From: Candidatus Gastranaerophilales bacterium | GTDB lineage: Bacteria > Cyanobacteriota > Vampirovibrionia > Gastranaerophilales > Gastranaerophilaceae | Direction: 5' to 3' | Assembly: GCA_944326565.1 (NCBI GenBank) | Contig: CALVEL010000001.1 | Location: forward strand, 310,001-374,000 | Length of the DNA stretch: 64,000 nucleotides | Part shown: positions 5,423 to 49,359 of the stretch, in pieces | Position numbering within the stretch: the first letter of the stretch is position 1 | How the letters are laid out: the number at the start of each line of letters is the position of its first letter | The notes under the pieces: generated by a model | What the model saw: the letters and a program-made list of their open reading frames with translations, nothing else | Database searches by the model: none | Told to the model about the DNA's origin: nothing | Position numbers and translations under genes: made by a program

Positions 5423-6334
5423 ATGCAGACTATACTTGAAAAACGGGGGGGGGGGGCACCCGAGAATAAGCTCCTCAGAGGAAATTTTTTAGGATTTGCA
5501 TTAGAATTATTGAGGTTTAAAAAACATATTTTACCCTGTCATTTATTGAGCGGAGCTCTACTGATCTCAAAAAAGAATGAGCAGAAGATTCTTTGCTTTG
5601 CTCAGAATGACGAAAAGTGTGCCTTTACTTTAGCAGAAGTTCTGATAACTTTAGGAGTAATCGGGATAGTAGCGGCCATGACATTGCCTTCTTTAATCAG
5701 CAATTGGCGTTATAAACAACTTGAGACGGCATTTAAAAAAGCCTATTCTGTTCATTCTGCTGCTTTATCATTGGTAAAAGCTGAGGTTGGTGTTGATAAT
5801 CTTAAAGCAGAGTTTGCTAAATATGATAGGGTAAGTCAGTCATATTCAAGGGCTAATGAATTTATATCATTGTATAATGACAAATTGCATGTAATCGGGA
5901 AATGCGTGTATAACGAAAAAATAAGAAATTATAATAATACAGATGATGCTTACGTAGATATTGGTACAACAAAAATTGATTATATGTTACCTGATGGTAG
6001 TTGTTATAAGGCTGTAGTCAATGGTGCTGAGGTAAGTATAACTATAGATATCAATGGCGCAGGAGCAAAACCGAACAGATTAGGTCATGACATTTTTGTA
6101 TTTAGGGTTGATACAAATGGGATGCTATCACCTGTAAAGATGTCTAAATTATACACTGATGAGGAGTTGGAAGATAAGTGGAGTGGACAACCTGCAATGT
6201 CCGCACAGGTCGGAGATCCATGTTCCATAAAATCCAAACAAAAAGGTAATGGTATGGGGTGTGCATGGTATGCCTTAAACGATATCAATCCTGATGATAA
6301 CAGCAAACGTTATTGGGAAAACTTACCAAAATAG
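5423..6334 (+). CDS. Pseudopilin A with long G-tract leader (in frame, 12 G)
   Basis: Type IV pilin-like/pseudopilin protein of 303 residues. The prepilin-peptidase motif is A67 | F-T-L-A-E-V-L-I-T-L-G with the conserved Glu at +5, followed by the hydrophobic N-terminal helix and a globular domain. The C-terminal half has D-I-N-G-A-G...P-N-R-L-G-H-D-I-F-V-F and a G-x-G-x-x-C-A-W-Y segment shared with pseudopilins B and D. The start at 5423 is fixed by AAGGAG six bases upstream. The leader is abnormally long (67 residues, against about 5 in C and D). It is coded by a run of 12 G, a sequence shared with pseudopilin B, and a palindromic repeat. With 11 G it would end after R-I-S-S-S-E-E-I-F; with 13 G it would stop four codons after the run. 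This copy is therefore in the ON frame. No secretion or pilus assembly genes are adjacent. Confidence 0.85.
   Translation: MQTILEKRGGGAPENKLLRGNFLGFALELLRFKKHILPCHLLSGALLISKKNEQKILCFAQNDEKCAFTLAEVLITLGVIGIVAAMTLPSLISNWRYKQLETAFKKAYSVHSAALSLVKAEVGVDNLKAEFAKYDRVSQSYSRANEFISLYNDKLHVIGKCVYNEKIRNYNNTDDAYVDIGTTKIDYMLPDGSCYKAVVNGAEVSITIDINGAGAKPNRLGHDIFVFRVDTNGMLSPVKMSKLYTDEELEDKWSGQPAMSAQVGDPCSIKSKQKGNGMGCAWYALNDINPDDNSKRYWENLPK
5445..5456 (+). repeat. Homopolymer run of 12 G in pseudopilin A leader
   Basis: Twelve consecutive G in otherwise AT-rich DNA, at codons 8-12 of the gene. It reads Arg-Gly-Gly-Gly-Ala in the open frame. Such runs slip during replication, so the reading frame downstream would change at high frequency. 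Confidence 0.9.
5537..5612. repeat. REP-like imperfect inverted repeat inside pseudopilin A leader
   Basis: Arm 1 TGTCATTTATTGAGCGGAGC (5537-5556) and arm 2 GCTTTGCTCAGAATGACG (5595-5612) are imperfect reverse complements sharing the GTCATT...TGAGC core. A smaller TGAGCA/TGCTCA pair is nested on the arm-2 side. The arrangement resembles short palindromic intergenic repeats found in many bacteria, but here it is read through as codons of the leader. Confidence 0.6.
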
Positions 6335-6978: not shown

Positions 6979-9555
6979 ATGTCAAAATCAGAAATCAATC
7001 AAATAAATTCATGGGATGTAAAAATAGAAGATTTAACACCAGTTATGCAGCAGTATATGCAGATAAAACGGCAAAATCCTGATGCGGTTTTGCTTTATAG
7101 GCTGGGTGATTTTTATGAAACTTTTTTTGAAGATGCAATTCTAATGTCTAAAGAGCTGGAGTTAACACTCACTGGTCGAGACGCCGGTGTTGTATACGGC
7201 AGGATTCCTTTAGCAGGAATTCCAGTCAAGGCAGTTGTAGGATATTTGGAAAAGTTGGTTCAAAAAAATATAAAAGTTGCAATCTGTGACCAGCTTGAGG
7301 ATCCAAAGTTTGCAAAAGGACTTGTTAAAAGAGGTGTGACAAGGATTATTACATCGGGCACGCTTACAGAAAGTGACTTTTTGAAACAAAATAAAAACAA
7401 CTATATTGCAGCAATGTTCAAAGATGAAAAGTCTGATATTTATGGTTTTGCATATTCAGATATTTCTACTGGTGAATTTAAAGTTACCCAAGCTCCTTTA
7501 AATCTTTTGATTTCAGAGCTTGCCAGATTACAGCCTGCGGAAATTGTTGCACCTGCAATACGAGGTGAAATAAAACCTTTCCAAATAGTACCTGAAGAAA
7601 AAGTTGATTTACCTGAAGGAATTGTAAAAGTATATAATTGTTCAAAAATCCCTGCAAATGTATTTGAATTTTCTATGACTGATGCTAATTTAAAAGCGCT
7701 ATTTTCTACAGCTGCACTGACTGCATTCGGGTATGAAAAGTATAAAATAGGATTTAGAGCAGCAGGAGCATTGTTTGCATATATTTGGGAGAGCATGAAA
7801 GAGAATGTACCTAAAATTGAGCGTATTGAATCTTATGAGCTTTCAGAATATATGATTTTGGATGCAAGTACAAGAAAGAATCTTGAGCTTGTTGAAACTT
7901 TGCGTGAAAAAAATAAATACGGGTCACTTTTATGGGCAATTGATCAGACAAAGACTAATATGGGAGCAAGGCTTTTAAGAAGTTGGATTTGTCAGCCTTT
8001 AAAACGAATATCAGATATTGAAAAACGTCAGAATGCTGTATCTGAATTTGTAGAAAAATCATCTACAAGAATTTCACTTATTGAAGCATTAGAAAAAATC
8101 TATGATATCCAAAGACTATCTACAAGATTGAGTAACAATTCAGCAAATCCAAAAGATTTTTTGAGCTTAAAATCATCTTTACAGATGCTGCCGGATTTGA
8201 TAGAAATTTCTTCAGAGTTGGACAATAATCCTTTTAAAAATATTATAGAATATGCAAATGAAATAAAGGATTTTGCTGATTTAATAGATCGCACGATAAA
8301 AGAAGATGCGCCTATGGTTATAAAAGAAGGCGGAATAATAAAAGAAGGTGTATCAGGGGAACTTGATTATTATCGTGATTTGTTGACAAACGGAGAAGGC
8401 TGGCTTCAGAATTTTGAAGAGCGAGAAAAAGAAGCGACGGGTATCAAAAATTTAAAAGTAGGATATAATAAAGTTTTCGGTTACTTTATTGAAGTTACAA
8501 ATTCATACCGTAACATGGTTCCTGATACATATATAAGGAAACAAACTCTTACTGGAGCTGAAAGATTTATTACACAAGAGTTAAAAACACATGAAGATGA
8601 TGTATTATCAGCAAGATTCAAAGCAACAGAATTAGAATATAAGTTATTTACGGATTTTAGAGAATATTCAAAAGAGTTTGTTTCTAAAATCAGAGAAATA
8701 GCAGAAAGCATTGCAACAGCTGATGTTTTGTCATCTTTAGCTCAAGTCGCTGTCGAAAATAATTATTGCAGACCTGAAATTGATGCATCAGGTGATTTCA
8801 TAGTGAGAAACGGCAGACACCCTGTGTTGGAAAAAATACTTCCTTTAGGTGAATATGTTGCAAATGATTTGGAGTTACAGAGCAATTCGGTTGACAAAAC
8901 GCAATTTATGATATTAACCGGTCCTAATATGGCAGGTAAATCAACATATATGAGACAGAATGCTTTAATTGCCATATTAGCTCAAATAGGTTCATGGGTC
9001 CCTGCTGATTATTTAAAACTTGGTATAATTGATAAAATTTTCACGCGAGTTGGGGCTTCGGATGATTTGACACTTGGTCAATCAACATTTATGGTAGAGA
9101 TGATTGAGACTGCATATATACTAAATTCAGCGACAGAAAACAGTTTTATTTTGCTAGATGAAATCGGACGTGGGACAAGTACATATGATGGTGTAGCTAT
9201 CGCTTGGTCAGTGGCTGAATTCATTGCTACTAAAATAAAAGCCAGATGTATTTTTGCAACTCATTATCATGAATTGAATGTTATGACAAAAACTTATCCG
9301 CAGATTAAAAATTTTAGAATTACTATTGCAGAGGAAAACGGAGAAATTGAATTTTTGCGTAAGATTGTACAGGGTGGAGCAAGCAAAAGCTATGGTATTC
9401 AAGTTGCCAAAATGGCAGGGTTGCCGACTTCTGTAATAAAAAGATCTCAAGATTTGATGCATAAAATGCAAAAAGATTTTTCTAATAATTTAGCAACAAA
9501 GAAAAAATCTGATAATACACAGCTTGAAGTTCCGCAATTGAATCTTTTTAATTAA
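6979..9555 (+). CDS. mutS: DNA mismatch repair protein MutS
   Basis: Mismatch-recognition ATPase of 858 residues. The N-terminal mismatch-binding domain has the Phe-x-Glu motif in Y-R-L-G-D-F-Y-E-T-F. The connector and lever domains follow. The ATPase core has Walker A T-G-P-N-M-A-G-K-S-T near residue 647, Walker B L-L-D-E-I-G-R-G-T-S and A-T-H-Y-H-E-L. The C-terminal tail ends Q-L-N-L-F, a beta-clamp-binding-like peptide. mutL is not in the window. Mismatch repair status normally sets the slippage rate of homopolymer runs, so an apparently intact MutS matters for the G-tract pseudopilins nearby. Confidence 0.97.
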   Translation: MSKSEINQINSWDVKIEDLTPVMQQYMQIKRQNPDAVLLYRLGDFYETFFEDAILMSKELELTLTGRDAGVVYGRIPLAGIPVKAVVGYLEKLVQKNIKVAICDQLEDPKFAKGLVKRGVTRIITSGTLTESDFLKQNKNNYIAAMFKDEKSDIYGFAYSDISTGEFKVTQAPLNLLISELARLQPAEIVAPAIRGEIKPFQIVPEEKVDLPEGIVKVYNCSKIPANVFEFSMTDANLKALFSTAALTAFGYEKYKIGFRAAGALFAYIWESMKENVPKIERIESYELSEYMILDASTRKNLELVETLREKNKYGSLLWAIDQTKTNMGARLLRSWICQPLKRISDIEKRQNAVSEFVEKSSTRISLIEALEKIYDIQRLSTRLSNNSANPKDFLSLKSSLQMLPDLIEISSELDNNPFKNIIEYANEIKDFADLIDRTIKEDAPMVIKEGGIIKEGVSGELDYYRDLLTNGEGWLQNFEEREKEATGIKNLKVGYNKVFGYFIEVTNSYRNMVPDTYIRKQTLTGAERFITQELKTHEDDVLSARFKATELEYKLFTDFREYSKEFVSKIREIAESIATADVLSSLAQVAVENNYCRPEIDASGDFIVRNGRHPVLEKILPLGEYVANDLELQSNSVDKTQFMILTGPNMAGKSTYMRQNALIAILAQIGSWVPADYLKLGIIDKIFTRVGASDDLTLGQSTFMVEMIETAYILNSATENSFILLDEIGRGTSTYDGVAIAWSVAEFIATKIKARCIFATHYHELNVMTKTYPQIKNFRITIAEENGEIEFLRKIVQGGASKSYGIQVAKMAGLPTSVIKRSQDLMHKMQKDFSNNLATKKKSDNTQLEVPQLNLFN

Positions 9556-15809: not shown

Positions 15810-15836
15810 ACATTTTTACATAAATCGGAGGTGCGT

Positions 15837-16544
15837 ATGAAAAAGGCATTCACAATGGCAGAAGTTCTGATTACACTTGGAATACTGGGAATAGTAATCG
15901 TGTTGACTTTCCCGATATTAATGGAAGGTTATAAAAAGCAAGTCATAGAGACTCGTTTAGCAAGATTTTATTCTGTTATAAACCAAGCAATTACAATGTC
16001 TGAAGTTAAAAACGGAGACAAAAAATACTGGGATATAAATAATAACGGGTGGGAAACCGATGAAGACGGAAATAAGGATATGTCTAAACCACCAAAATCA
16101 TTACCATGGTTTAACCAATATTTGAAAGATTTTGTAAAAGCGGCAAGAGTTGATTATGAAAATACCACAGAAGGGAAAGTAATGTTATATTTTCCTGATG
16201 GAAGTCTAGTTTTAATTTCTGAATCTTCTTGGATATTTTATCCTGAAGCTAAAGATTATGAGGTTATTGAATCCTCAGTTAATGGTACTGATAGGAATAG
16301 GGAAGTATCCGGAATTAAATATTTTACATTCTATTTTAGACCTTGGGATAAAAGTAATAAATGGCTGTATGGCAAAGGTGTTGAGCCCTATATGAATACT
16401 GGCTGGGATGGAACCCGTGAAATGTTATTAAGCGATGATATAATCGGCTGTAAAAAAACAGTTACAAATGAGCGTGCATATTGTACTAAGCTTATACAAA
16501 TGAATGGCTGGAAATTTCCTAAAGATTATCCGCTGAAATTGTAA
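15837..16544 (+). CDS. Pseudopilin C (ordinary short leader)
   Basis: 235-residue pilin-like protein. The leader is only M-K-K-A, then F-T-M-A-E-V-L-I-T-L-G with Glu at +5 and a hydrophobic helix. The end reads Y-C-T-K-L-I-Q-M-N-G-W-K-F-P-K-D-Y-P, matching the C-terminal C-x3-I-x2-x-G-W-x4-D-Y-P signature of pseudopilin B. The start at 15837 follows CGGAGG by five bases; a GTG six bases earlier lies inside that site. It has no G run. Its middle domain is Trp- and Asn-rich and differs from A, B and D. It is probably regulated by the adjacent divergent HTH protein. Cellular role (type IV pilus or type II-like secretion) is not decided by the neighbours. Confidence 0.85.
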   Translation: MKKAFTMAEVLITLGILGIVIVLTFPILMEGYKKQVIETRLARFYSVINQAITMSEVKNGDKKYWDINNNGWETDEDGNKDMSKPPKSLPWFNQYLKDFVKAARVDYENTTEGKVMLYFPDGSLVLISESSWIFYPEAKDYEVIESSVNGTDRNREVSGIKYFTFYFRPWDKSNKWLYGKGVEPYMNTGWDGTREMLLSDDIIGCKKTVTNERAYCTKLIQMNGWKFPKDYPLKL

Positions 16545-36037: not shown

Positions 36038-38413
36038 TCATCTTAGAGAAATTACACTAATGCCGTCACCGCCTTCGCCGTCACCTCCAGGGCGAAATTC
36101 TTTTACATAGGGTGACGTCTTTAAGAAATCTCTAACGGCTGATTTTAAAGCCCCTGTGCCATGTCCATGTATCACCGATACTTCAGAAAAATTAGCAAGA
36201 CTTGCTTGATCAAGGAACAGTTCCAACTCATCAAGAGAATCTTCTACGGTTTTGCCTCTCAAATCAAGTCGATTTGAAAGTTCTGTACGTTTTAGTTCAA
36301 ATTTTTCTAAACTAACAGGAGTATACCCTGAAGATTTTTTTTCATACTTTTTATCATAAGGTGCAAGTTTTTCTTTTGTAATTTGGGTTTTTATGTTTCC
36401 CATCTGTACTAGGATTTTACCTTTTTTGTCCGGCATAGAAAGGATAGTTACTGTCTGGTGAATATCTTTTACAAGTAATTTATCACCGATTTTCAGTTTT
36501 TCAAAATCTATGGGAGCATATTTGTTTTTTTCATCAAATTTATCGAGTTTTTCTTTAAAACTCTGCTCAAGTTTTGTAAGACGTGAATATGATCTGCGAG
36601 CTATTTTTTCTGTCTTTTCTTTTCGCATATCATCTATTATTTCTTTTAATTCAGCTCTTGCAGATAACATTTCACTGTCAAATTTCATTTTTATGTTTTT
36701 AATTGTTTTTTTCTTATCTTTTTTAATGGCTTCTAAATTTTCTTCATATTCTTTTTTTAATTCATCGGCTTCTTCTTTGGCTATTTCTGTATTTTTAAGA
36801 TTGTCACTCAATTTTTGTTGTGTTTCTTGTAATTTCTCTACGACAAGAATTGAAGAATCTTTTTGAGATATAAGCATATCTTTAGCTTTTTCTGTGATAT
36901 CTTTCGATAGTCCCAAATTGGATGAAATTGCAATTGCATTACTTAGTCCAGGGATTCCTATTAAAAGTTTGTATGTGGGGTTTAGTGAATTTGAATCAAA
37001 TTCGACAGATGCGTTTTTAAAATACGTATTTGAATATTCAAGAGCTTTTAATTCTCCATAGTGAGTTGTAATCGTAGAAAAAGCTCCTTTTTGAGCCAAA
37101 TATTCCAAAATTACTTTTGCAAGCACAGAACCCTCTTGGGGATCAGTGCCTGCGCAAATTTCATCTAATAAAACATATGTTTCATCATCGGATTTTTCCG
37201 TGATCTCAATGATATTTTTCATGTGTGATGAAAAAGTTGATAAGCTTTGCAAAATACTTTGATCATCACCAATATCTGCAAAAACTTTTTTGAATGGATA
37301 AACCTTTGCCATTGTACAAGGCAGGAAAAATCCAGCTTTTGTCATTAAAATAAAAAGTCCGATAGTTTTTATAGTAACTGTTTTTCCGCCAGTGTTGGAG
37401 CCTGTAATTATTATTGATTTATACTCTTTTCCAATTTCAAAGTCATTTGATACTATGTTGTCTACTGTACCTATTAAAAGCGGGTGTCGCATATTTTCAA
37501 AACTTATAATTTTTTTATCAGTGACTAATTCAGGTTCAATTGCTCCAATTCTTGTTGCATATCTTGCTTTTGCAAAGTGAAAATCAATTTCGGCTAACGT
37601 CCGTTCGGTTATTTTTAAATCTGTCATCTTATCTTTCACAAGAGATGATAATTCGACTAAAATTCGCACTTCTTCTACATGAATTTCTGATTTAACTTCT
37701 CTGATTTTGTTGTTTATCGGAACAATTTCTTCAGGCTCTATATAAAATGTTTTGTTAGTTGCTGATACATCGTGGACAATCCCTTTTATTTTATTTTTTG
37801 AGGGCGCTTTAACTTGAAAAACAACTCTTTCATCTCTTGTTGTGTAAATATTTTCCTGCAAATGTTTTGAAAATTCCGCAGAATTTAAAAGGTCATTTAC
37901 TTTATTCCTGAGATTTTTTTCATTATCAAAAAGAGATGCCCATAGACCTTTTAATTCCGGAGTTGCATCTTTTTTTATTTCTAAATTTTCATCGAAAGTA
38001 TTGAAAATTCTATCTTCTAAATCTCTTGCTGATAAAAGATTTTGAGAAAGTTGTAATAGTTGATGAATTTTTGTGTTTTCAGAATAATCTTGTATAAATT
38101 TTTTGACTAACCTTGATGAGTGCAGAGTCTTAGCAACATCAATCAGTTCTTCTTCATTTAAGTAGCTTATATGTGCTCTATTTTGAATTTCATTTATATT
38201 AGCGACAAAACCTATCGGAATATCAATTGCATAATCAAGCAGACTTTTTGCTTCTTTTGTGTAATTTAATGCTTTTATAATATCTGAATATTCATTATAA
38301 ATTAGCGCATTCAATGACAGCTCTTTGCTTTGAGATGTTTTAGCAAACAGAGCAATTTTTTCTTGAATTTTATCAAATTCTAAAGTCTTTAAGGTCTTTA
38401 ATTGAATATCCAT
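36038..38413 (-). CDS. mutS2: MutS2 / endonuclease MutS2-Smr
   Basis: 791 residues: MutS-like core and clamp, ATPase with Walker A I-T-G-S-N-T-G-G-K-T and Walker B L-L-D-E-I-C-A-G-T-D-P-Q-E-G, a long Lys/Glu coiled coil (about 510-620), then a C-terminal Smr domain (D-L-R-G-K-T through V-I-H-G-H-G-T-G-A-L-K). MutS2 lacks the mismatch-binding domain; it has been tied to suppression of recombination and to rescue of collided ribosomes. A TTGCAA-16-TAAAAT promoter ends six bases before the ATG, with no Shine-Dalgarno site. Confidence 0.95.
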   Translation of the reverse strand: MDIQLKTLKTLEFDKIQEKIALFAKTSQSKELSLNALIYNEYSDIIKALNYTKEAKSLLDYAIDIPIGFVANINEIQNRAHISYLNEEELIDVAKTLHSSRLVKKFIQDYSENTKIHQLLQLSQNLLSARDLEDRIFNTFDENLEIKKDATPELKGLWASLFDNEKNLRNKVNDLLNSAEFSKHLQENIYTTRDERVVFQVKAPSKNKIKGIVHDVSATNKTFYIEPEEIVPINNKIREVKSEIHVEEVRILVELSSLVKDKMTDLKITERTLAEIDFHFAKARYATRIGAIEPELVTDKKIISFENMRHPLLIGTVDNIVSNDFEIGKEYKSIIITGSNTGGKTVTIKTIGLFILMTKAGFFLPCTMAKVYPFKKVFADIGDDQSILQSLSTFSSHMKNIIEITEKSDDETYVLLDEICAGTDPQEGSVLAKVILEYLAQKGAFSTITTHYGELKALEYSNTYFKNASVEFDSNSLNPTYKLLIGIPGLSNAIAISSNLGLSKDITEKAKDMLISQKDSSILVVEKLQETQQKLSDNLKNTEIAKEEADELKKEYEENLEAIKKDKKKTIKNIKMKFDSEMLSARAELKEIIDDMRKEKTEKIARRSYSRLTKLEQSFKEKLDKFDEKNKYAPIDFEKLKIGDKLLVKDIHQTVTILSMPDKKGKILVQMGNIKTQITKEKLAPYDKKYEKKSSGYTPVSLEKFELKRTELSNRLDLRGKTVEDSLDELELFLDQASLANFSEVSVIHGHGTGALKSAVRDFLKTSPYVKEFRPGGDGEGGDGISVISLR

Positions 38414-43884: not shown

Positions 43885-43913
43885 TTGCAATTATGTAAAA
43901 TTTATATTATACT
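43885..43913 (+). promoter_or_regulatory. Candidate promoter of pseudopilin B
   Basis: TTGCAA (43885-43890), 17 bases, TTATAC (43908-43913). It leaves a roughly 30-base leader before GAGGAG and the ATG. Promoter and ribosome site look intact although the frame behind them is broken. Confidence 0.45.
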
Positions 43914-43952
43914 GATTTTGTTTTAATAGTACTAGCGCAAGAGGAGCAAATG

Positions 43953-44745
43953 ATGAAAACGCACACTATGATTGAAATTTTAGGGGGGGGGGGCACCCGC
44001 AAATAACGCTCCTGAGAGGCTTTTAGTAAAAAATAGAGCATTTACACTGGCAGAAGTACTGATAACCTTAGGCATAATCGGGATAGTTGCAGCTATGACA
44101 ATGCCGATTTTGATTGGAAAATATAAAAAGCAAGTTACTGTGACACAATTAAAAAAAGCATATACAGTATTAAGTCAAATGGTATTAAGATCACAAGAGG
44201 ATAACGGACCAGTATACTTTTCGACTTCTGAGCAAGTCGATCCTAATGTAGCAGAGAACTTTTTTAAATTATATTGGTTACCTTATTTCAATAGTCCAAC
44301 AGTTTCAAAAGTAGGTTTTAAACCTTATGGCGTTGATCTACCATATAAATATATGAATTATACTCAAGTTAATACAGGTGTTTATACAAAATATACAGAA
44401 GGAAGATTATTTTTTACAACAAACGATGGTACTTCATATTTTGTATTTATCATGACTTGGGATAAAGAATATGATGAAGATGGCAATATGATTTCTATAA
44501 TAGCTAGGTATAATAGTCAACAATATGTATATGTTGATTTGAATGGAATAAAACCTCCAAATACTTTTGGAAAAGATATATTTGGATTTGTTGTGTATTT
44601 TGATAAAAGTATAGTTAGACCTTATGGTAATGGTAAAACTACAGAACAAATTAATGAAGATTGCAGTCATACAGGTACAGGTAATTATTGTGCAGCAAAG
44701 ATAATGCAAGACGGTTGGGAAATAAAAGATGATTACCCATGGTAA
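43953..44745 (+). CDS. Pseudopilin B with G-tract leader (out of frame, 11 G)
   Basis: AGGAG lies six bases before ATG 43953. The frame runs M-K-T-H-T-M-I-E-I-L into 11 G and then stops at TAA 44004-44006. The pseudopilin itself lies one frame away: F-T-L-A-E-V-L-I-T-L-G from 44041, hydrophobic helix, globular domain, and the ending C-A-A-K-I-M-Q-D-G-W-E-I-K-D-D-Y-P-W. With 10 or 13 G the two join into one protein with a 29-residue leader and about 263 residues in all. No ATG, GTG or TTG exists in the pilin frame between the G run and the motif; the first ATG (44095) lies inside the hydrophobic helix, past the cleavage motif. The pilin part has no other stop, so I treat it as a switched-off or frameshifted gene, not a decayed one. 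Confidence 0.75.
43983..43993 (+). repeat. Homopolymer run of 11 G in pseudopilin B leader
   Basis: Eleven consecutive G at the same relative place as in pseudopilin A, and followed by the same GCACCCG sequence. Loss of one G or gain of two opens the frame into the pilin domain. Confidence 0.9.
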
Positions 44746-47680: not shown

Positions 47681-48700
47681 ATGGAAATACTTTCAGGATT
47701 GTCTTTAGCTGAAATAGAACAAATAACAGATAATTTGCATGCCTCAAAATTCAGAGCACGTCAAATTCATAATTGGATTTATTTGAAATCTGTTAAAAAT
47801 ATTGATGAAATGACAGATTTGTCAGTAAAATTTAGAGATGAATTGAAAAAAGTTTCACTTGTCACTGATGTAAAAATAAAAGTGAAACAAGTAAGTTCTG
47901 ACGGTACAATAAAGTATTTGATAGAATATCCTGATGGAGAGTGTGTAGAGACTGTCTTGATGAGATTTGATAATCGTGCGAATTTAACGGCTTGTGTAAG
48001 CTCACAAATCGGCTGCGCCGTAAATTGTTCGTTTTGTGCAACCGGAAAGTGCGGATTTATAAGGAATTTAACATATAAAGAAATTATTGAGCAAGTGTTG
48101 ACAATCCAAAGAGATACAGGGCTAAAAGTTACAAATATAGTCTTTATGGGACAAGGTGAACCGCTTTTGAATTTAGATAATGTCTTGAAAGCTATGGAAA
48201 TTTTTAATGAAAATTTTCAAATCGGAGCTAGACGCCTTACAGTATCTACCAGTGGAATTGTGCCTCAAATATATAAATTGGCTGAAAATGATATGCAATC
48301 AACACTTGCAATATCATTGCATGCTCCAAATCATGAAATACGAAAAAAAATTATGCCGATAGAAAACAAGTATGATATGAAAGAGCTTAAAACAGCCCTT
48401 AAAAAATATGTAGATAAAACAGGCAGAAGAATTACTGTTGAATATCTTTTAATAAAAGATTTGAACGATTCTGCCGATGCTGCAAAGGAATTGGCAGAAT
48501 ATCTTTCTGATATAAAATGTAATATAAATTTAATTCCCTATAATCCGACTGCAAAAAATGATTATCAGCGTCCATCCAATAATTCGATCCAAAAATTCAA
48601 ATATCTGCTTGAGCATTCAGGTAAAAAGGTAACAGTGCGATTGGAACGCGGTGCAGATATTGATGCAGCTTGCGGTCAATTGCGTGGTAAAGTGGACTAG
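47681..48700 (+). CDS. rlmN: 23S rRNA (A2503)-C2 / tRNA (A37)-C2 methyltransferase RlmN
   Basis: Radical-SAM methylase of 339 residues that methylates A2503 of 23S rRNA and A37 of some tRNAs. The cluster-binding C112-x3-C116-x2-C119 motif sits in Q-I-G-C-A-V-N-C-S-F-C. The second catalytic cysteine is C331 in A-A-C-G-Q-L, and G-Q-G-E-P-L-L-N is present. AAAGGAT precedes the ATG. Its stop overlaps that of pseudopilin D by four bases, tail to tail. Confidence 0.96.
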   Translation: MEILSGLSLAEIEQITDNLHASKFRARQIHNWIYLKSVKNIDEMTDLSVKFRDELKKVSLVTDVKIKVKQVSSDGTIKYLIEYPDGECVETVLMRFDNRANLTACVSSQIGCAVNCSFCATGKCGFIRNLTYKEIIEQVLTIQRDTGLKVTNIVFMGQGEPLLNLDNVLKAMEIFNENFQIGARRLTVSTSGIVPQIYKLAENDMQSTLAISLHAPNHEIRKKIMPIENKYDMKELKTALKKYVDKTGRRITVEYLLIKDLNDSADAAKELAEYLSDIKCNINLIPYNPTAKNDYQRPSNNSIQKFKYLLEHSGKKVTVRLERGADIDAACGQLRGKVD

Positions 48701-49359
48701 TTTTCTTGTGTTTGCGGATACTTCATATTGTCGTGTTCCAAAATATATCTCGCACAGCCCCAGCCTTGTTTTTCTTCATAGCAGTCATCATTATTGTGAG
48801 GTGTTATTCTGTCTTTTAGAATATAAAATACAAAAATATCCTTTCCTAATTGATTAGGTAGTTTGGCACCGTTAAGATCGTACCAAATTAATCCACAAAC
48901 ATTAGCTGTACTAGCATCATTGTTTTTACAAGTATTAGAGTTGTTGTGTCTAATCCATAAATAACTACCATCATTTAATATCATTTTATAGTATAAATCT
49001 CCATTTCCATAATTGCTTGAAAAGCTGTTACCATTCAAATATTTATATCCATTTTGAGCGATGCAGTTTGAATTATTAGCACAATCCCTTATAACTTTGA
49101 GTTCAGATCTAAAATTGCTAACAAATTGTGTTGCACATTCTGCGTTATACTCTTCACAAAACCCCCATTCATCTACATATCCATGTTTACCAATGGACAT
49201 AAGTAGCGCCTGGCTCATTACGGAATAGAATTTTTTAACTTTTGCAACGGTTTCACGTTCTTTCGCATTATTAATTACAGTTGGCAGAGTTATTGCGGCA
49301 ATAATACCTATAATGCCAAGTGTTATAAGAACTTCTGCCATAGTAAATCCTTTTTTCAT
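48697..49359 (-). CDS. Pseudopilin D (ordinary short leader)
   Basis: 220-residue pilin-like protein with a M-K-K-G leader and F-T-M-A-E-V-L-I-T-L-G, Glu at +5, and a hydrophobic helix. Further on it has W-Y-D-L-N-G-A-K-L-P-N-Q-L-G-K-D-I-F-V-F, matching the same region in A and B, then a C-terminal G-W-G-C-A-R-Y segment. The paired cysteines suggest disulfide-stabilised globular folds. The Shine-Dalgarno is GAGAGGC. No G run. It diverges from the AbrB-like gene and lies between rlmN and dtd, with no pilus genes around it. Confidence 0.87.
   Translation of the reverse strand: MKKGFTMAEVLITLGIIGIIAAITLPTVINNAKERETVAKVKKFYSVMSQALLMSIGKHGYVDEWGFCEEYNAECATQFVSNFRSELKVIRDCANNSNCIAQNGYKYLNGNSFSSNYGNGDLYYKMILNDGSYLWIRHNNSNTCKNNDASTANVCGLIWYDLNGAKLPNQLGKDIFVFYILKDRITPHNNDDCYEEKQGWGCARYILEHDNMKYPQTQEN

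Follow-up and report, generated by a model that had tools for sequence, protein, structure and literature searches.

A G-tract separates start codon and pilin frame in a large family of Gastranaerophilaceae pilin-like genes, most of which lie in one out-of-frame register

Results

Organization of locus B

The window analysed is a 64,000-nucleotide stretch of a Candidatus Gastranaerophilales bacterium genome (assembly GCA_944326565.1, contig CALVEL010000001.1, positions 310,001 to 374,000 of the forward strand), and coordinates given below refer to it. It carries two pilin-like open reading frames with a run of G residues near the start, termed A and B. The features are:

5423–6334, + strand: pilin A, in frame, with a G12 tract at 5445–5456 and the same post-run block as B (PF07963 just below cut-off, TIGR02532 above)
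43885–43913, + strand: promoter-like sequence TTGCAA-17-TATACT (consensus scan 9/12, weak; 2 overlapping matches against 0.7 expected)
43942–43946, + strand: Shine-Dalgarno AGGAG (read from the sequence)
43950–43982, + strand: leader coding segment of locus B, ATGATGAAAACGCACACTATGATTGAAATTTTA (MMKTHTMIEIL; read from the sequence; the leader of the G009 orthologue is near-identical)
43983–43993, + strand: G11 tract, the putative switch of locus B (one of 28 G9+CACCC sites in the genome)
43984–44745, + strand: pilin B frame, out of frame with ATG 43950 (PF07963, TIGR02532)
43994–44006, + strand: genus-conserved block 3′ of the run, CACCCGCAAATAA, which includes the ATG-frame stop TAA at 44004–44006 (from the sequence)
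44008–44013, + strand: GCTCCT, a possible anti-Shine-Dalgarno arm (fold z-score not significant)

Pilin B displays profile matches to N_methyl PF07963 and TIGR02532, both above cut-offs, and a class III signal is present, with G/A at position −1, F at +1, E at +5 and a hydrophobic helix. The reading frame of the pilin stays open between 43984 and its stop codon at 44743–44745 and encodes the mature residue F+1 at 44041. The start of the locus, ATG 43950, is followed by a second in-frame ATG at 43953. One base fewer in the tract, or two more, joins the two frames. The pilin frame has no start codon 5′ of the N-methylation motif; its first is ATG 44095, which lies inside the pilin helix. A TTG start was considered and rejected: TTG is found in the pilin frame of many paralogues, but in B a TAG follows it.

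This organization agrees with an earlier reading made from the letters alone (the sequence-only reading). The Shine-Dalgarno, the ATG, the 11 G and a stop 11 bases past the run are borne out base for base, as are the intact pilin frame one frame away, the fusion of frames by removal of one G or addition of two, and the lack of an alternative start before the motif. The promoter-like sequence is also there, but it is weak.

Pilin A is read in frame from ATG 5423. Counting overlaps, the window has 9 matches to a run of 8 or more G, where 0.13 would be expected. Two further pilin-like genes, at 15831–16544 (which also matches DUF6613, PF20318) and 48697–49359, have no G run. A complete MutS gene (6979–9555) adjoins pilin A and a MutS2 gene is found at 36038–38413; mismatch repair bears on tract stability.

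Locus B in related genomes

Locus B lies between an H+-pyrophosphatase and a BcrAD-type ATPase, and a syntenic pilin is found there in G009, which is another species. The sequence-only reading had proposed a search of other strains for this locus with 10 or 13 G; the G009 orthologue matches locus B in tract length, 11 G, and in its out-of-frame register. Between the promoter and roughly codon 50 of the pilin the two sequences are near-identical, and beyond this they diverge. This mosaic (window 43983–44250 compared with L248 800–1010) suggests recombination or shuffling of the C-terminal part. G007 has no pilin at the site; G012 has one, with the contig end falling before the run.

Distribution of tract-bearing pilins

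The 1.87-Mb host genome has 28 G9+CACCC sites, compared with 0 for a reversed-pattern control, and all 28 sit between a Shine-Dalgarno/ATG and a pilin open reading frame. The pilin motif FT[LM][AST]EVLI occurs at least 64 times, and roughly half of these occurrences have a run. Nearly every paralogue has its own Shine-Dalgarno, ATG and tract. G-run sites occur in 13 of the 14 genomes of the window's genus; across the family, a G run precedes a pilin motif in 76 of 383 genomes and 13 of 41 genera, the control matching 0 throughout. Four relatives in which runs of 7 or more G were counted have 47–122 per genome. The tracts lie inside the start of the coding sequence, set the frame by their length and occur far beyond chance, as is expected of a poly-G translational phase-variation (contingency) locus. 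A search of viral contigs yielded no match.

In several genera, including g7, the coding-strand tract of pilin leaders consists of C rather than G (L359, L364, L373, L442–L466), the loci being mostly out of frame and in one fixed register. Leader modules between the run and the pilin motif are common to groups of paralogues, INRLHADHKN..KMNIILGNKEVSMKK and GFTQKPTDLKKEKVSIYPKALSKVFSKS, the groups being L001, L002, L009, L022, L026, L027 and L013, L014, L021, L025. In L372 and L391, G9–G11 runs lie just 5′ of long open reading frames that are not pilin-like.

Intact frames under purifying selection

Open reading frames of at least 190 codons are present in 80 of 83 phase-1 loci and 11 of 12 phase-2 loci of the genus, i.e. 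in 91 of 95 out-of-frame loci (~96%); phase 1 denotes a pilin in the +1 frame of its ATG. For 11 between-species pairs with both members out of frame, dN/dS is 0.06–0.38. In pilin B, 119 single substitutions could create a stop codon and none has occurred. The out-of-frame pilin frames are thus intact, under purifying selection and not decayed, as had been proposed for B from its sequence, and this selection implies that the pilin proteins are made at some time. Inactivation by frameshift, i.e. pseudogene formation, would fit the lack of an in-frame start in most copies but is hardly credible, as these same three observations already contradict it.

Registers are not random

Of 119 loci of the window's genus with an assigned start, 86 are in phase 1; 21 are in frame and the other 12 in phase 2. 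These counts come from loci that share descent within the genus, from start codons assigned through a Shine-Dalgarno match and from assemblies, which give the majority tract length only. Permuting run lengths among loci gives an expectation of 47/40/33 (phase 1/in frame/phase 2). None of 20,000 permutations reached 86 phase-1 loci, the largest value being 66; permutation within genomes gives an expected 53, and again none reached 86. When the loci are collapsed to 64 distinct spacing/leader architectures, 44 are still in phase 1. The in-frame share is below one third, both in this genus (21/119, ~18%, p = 2e-4) and in g38 (7/58, p = 4e-4). An ATG-to-run spacing of 22 occurs mostly with 13 G and a spacing of 23 mostly with 12 G; therefore the register is kept rather than the length.

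The preferred register differs between groups. In g38, where the search had no run-length bias, phase 2 accounts for 48 of 58 loci, 7 being in frame and 3 in the remaining phase, and the ATG-to-run spacings (15–39 nt) are nearly all multiples of 3 with G9 despite differing leaders. Nearly all sampled poly-C pilins of g7 are in phase 2 (13/16 over all poly-C loci). G231 shows phase 1 in 8 of 8 loci, G132 is mostly phase 2, and G054 is close to random. Between species, register is shared by 11 of 11 reciprocal-best orthologue pairs at 70–90% identity, and L024, L134 and L078, orthologues from three species, are all in phase 2.

Ascertainment bias from searching for G≥9 was rejected, since a recheck with G5 plus flank showed no shorter runs in the host genome and g38 runs are 9–11. 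Also rejected was a universal +1 frameshift, with which neither other genera nor the L024 family agree. A frameshift-type relation is fixed in several genera, but its direction differs between them, and G054 is random.

These registers do not fit free slippage, although a random spread is expected of contingency loci rather than strictly defining for them. The presence of in-frame and out-of-frame members in one genome is consistent with the proposal that A and B switch independently and were caught in opposite states. The proposal is too simple, because the registers are non-random, with one out-of-frame register per genus and ~18% of loci in frame, and because the 11 G of B are conserved in another species.

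Tract-length change between close copies

One example shows a change of tract length between close alleles. L190 (G005) and L102 (G006) display 98.3% identity over 2820 bp, and the only three gap columns are at the tract or its edges: one allele has G13 and is out of frame, the other has G12 and is in frame. This allele pair supports a slippage switch, and it is the single pair of close alleles with a polymorphism that changes the state, most orthologue pairs being alike. Among paralogues, loci of G054 with an equal leader spacing of 24 nt have G9, G10 or G11, and 5, 7 and 6 loci are in phases 2, 0 and 1. A search across collections for two versions of one species returned identical assemblies in all cases. 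The interpretation of B as the OFF state of a switch is partly supported: it gains from the shared architecture, from the intact out-of-frame pilin frames and from tract-length polymorphism between close alleles and paralogues; the non-random register speaks against free slippage.

A complement of the Shine-Dalgarno after the run

In locus B, AGGAGC at the Shine-Dalgarno is complementary to GCTCCT at 44008–44013. In the host genome a perfect 7-nt complement, AGGAGCT with AGCTCCT after the run, is found in 20 of 30 loci, compared with 0.6% in shuffled sequences, statistics that are weak as the loci are paralogues. Other complementary pairs are AAGGAGA/TCTCCTT in G034, and GGAGGTTAA/TTAACCTCC and TTAGAGGAGT/ACTCCTCTAA in g38; no such pair is present in five other groups. 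The stem is present in the minimum-energy fold, but z-scores of −0.45 and 0.08 are not significant, and a conserved RNA fold was rejected on these values. A hairpin that masks the Shine-Dalgarno, with the start codon and the run in its loop, is possible. Because paralogy weakens the statistics and the fold is not significantly stable, it is a lead only.

Discussion

The reading favoured here, probably though by no means surely correct, is that the pilins form a phase-variable repertoire in which selection maintains a default-off register. Many type IV pilin-like genes of Gastranaerophilaceae make up a large family in which a homopolymer tract of G (C in some genera) parts the start codon and a short leader from the pilin. 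Slippage of DNA polymerase would change the tract length and reversibly join or separate the two frames. Most members are in the preferred out-of-frame register, in which the pilin would normally not be made. Cells with a joining length would produce a prepilin with a leader of 20–60 residues, cut by prepilin peptidase before F+1. Selection may hold the default-off register, as its non-random frequency and conservation between species suggest, giving a repertoire of surface pilins with few on at once.

Two observations count against a default-off switch. Free slippage should give near-random registers, and 86/21/12 was found against 47/40/33; the same register is also seen in 11 of 11 orthologue pairs. 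Furthermore, the lower frequency of the second out-of-frame register compared with the in-frame state is not explained by default-off alone.

That rarity is accounted for if the conserved out-of-frame register is itself the expressed state, read constitutively by a change of ribosome frame or by RNA polymerase slippage on the G or C run. Such recoding would supply pilin at a low and fixed level; in-frame alleles would be high expressers and the third register a null. It would also fit the dominance of a single register per genus (86/119; 8/8 in G231; 48/58 in g38; 13/16 for poly-C), the g38 spacings in multiples of 3, and purifying selection on genes out of frame in both species. However, recoding would need a shift of the +1 type in the window's genus but of the −1 type in g38 and g7, and even the window's genus is not uniform, as L024/L134/L078 show; moreover, G054 holds all three registers about equally and no stimulatory structure is common to all genera. 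This explanation, the main rival, is a minority possibility, though one that carries some weight. Its extension to the whole pilin family as a three-level rheostat (low-dose recoded, high-dose in frame, null), with single-base slips converting one level into another, is likewise unlikely.

Out-of-frame pilins may instead serve mainly as recombination donors to expressed copies, like the silent pilin loci of Neisseria. The mosaic of B and its G009 orthologue and the leader modules common to several paralogues are in line with a silent store. Donors would have no need of the Shine-Dalgarno, ATG and tract that nearly every copy has, and the in-frame copies lie dispersed rather than at one expression site; this makes the explanation improbable.

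Errors of homopolymer length in assembly or consensus, with true lengths in frame, come to mind as the genomes are mostly metagenome assemblies, and in Bifidobacterium breve the reference length is itself a minority in culture (PMC9187656). Such errors would not track the ATG-to-run spacing (22 with 13 G, 23 with 12 G), nor would they produce matching registers in separately assembled genomes of different species, or uniform G8–G9 registers across several g38 assemblies. This explanation is very improbable.

The arrangement has parallels in known systems. In the poly-G contingency loci of Neisseria and Campylobacter, e.g. pilC, tract lengths vary between isolates. As in these, a poly-G of 8–14 near the start of a surface gene would switch the frame; in contrast to these, the loci described here favour one out-of-frame register and belong to a large multigene family of pilins, found in an uncultured sister group of the cyanobacteria. 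Programmed frameshift cassettes are found in prfB, dnaX and insertion sequences. They resemble the present loci in the fixed out-of-frame relation, the slippery run and, in several genera, the early zero-frame stop, but here the shift direction differs between genera, the tract length varies, and the relation is known from sequence alone.

A close precedent is provided by the sortase-pilus G-tracts of B. breve, bbr_0113 and bbr_1889, where the reference is out of frame and slippage was measured by deep sequencing (PMC9187656). Mixtures of tract length are present in culture, and the joining (ON) length is enriched in mice (PMC9187656). The short leader open reading frame, the tract (G10–G11 in B. 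breve), the out-of-frame reference, the joining by one base and the gut commensal habit are similar (PMC9187656). B. breve has sortase-dependent pilins at two loci per genome, whereas the pilins here are type IV pilin-like, with about 30 or more per genome, and their register, known from assembled genomes, is conserved across species.

No paper found in the literature search treats Gastranaerophilales together with phase variation, and papers on Gastranaerophilales that mention pilin do not treat a poly-G switch in their titles and abstracts. The poly-G pilin arrangement in this order is thus undescribed in the searchable literature.

Most pilins of the clade will be missed or cut short by automatic annotation. 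The non-random register presents a population-genetic puzzle, in that selection sees which out-of-frame state is held by a supposedly silent gene. The pili appear to be off by default and one copying slip from on, with most of the ~30 tract-bearing pilin genes out of frame by the same one base. This would place the uncultured gut Melainabacteria among the groups richest in homopolymer-switched surface genes.
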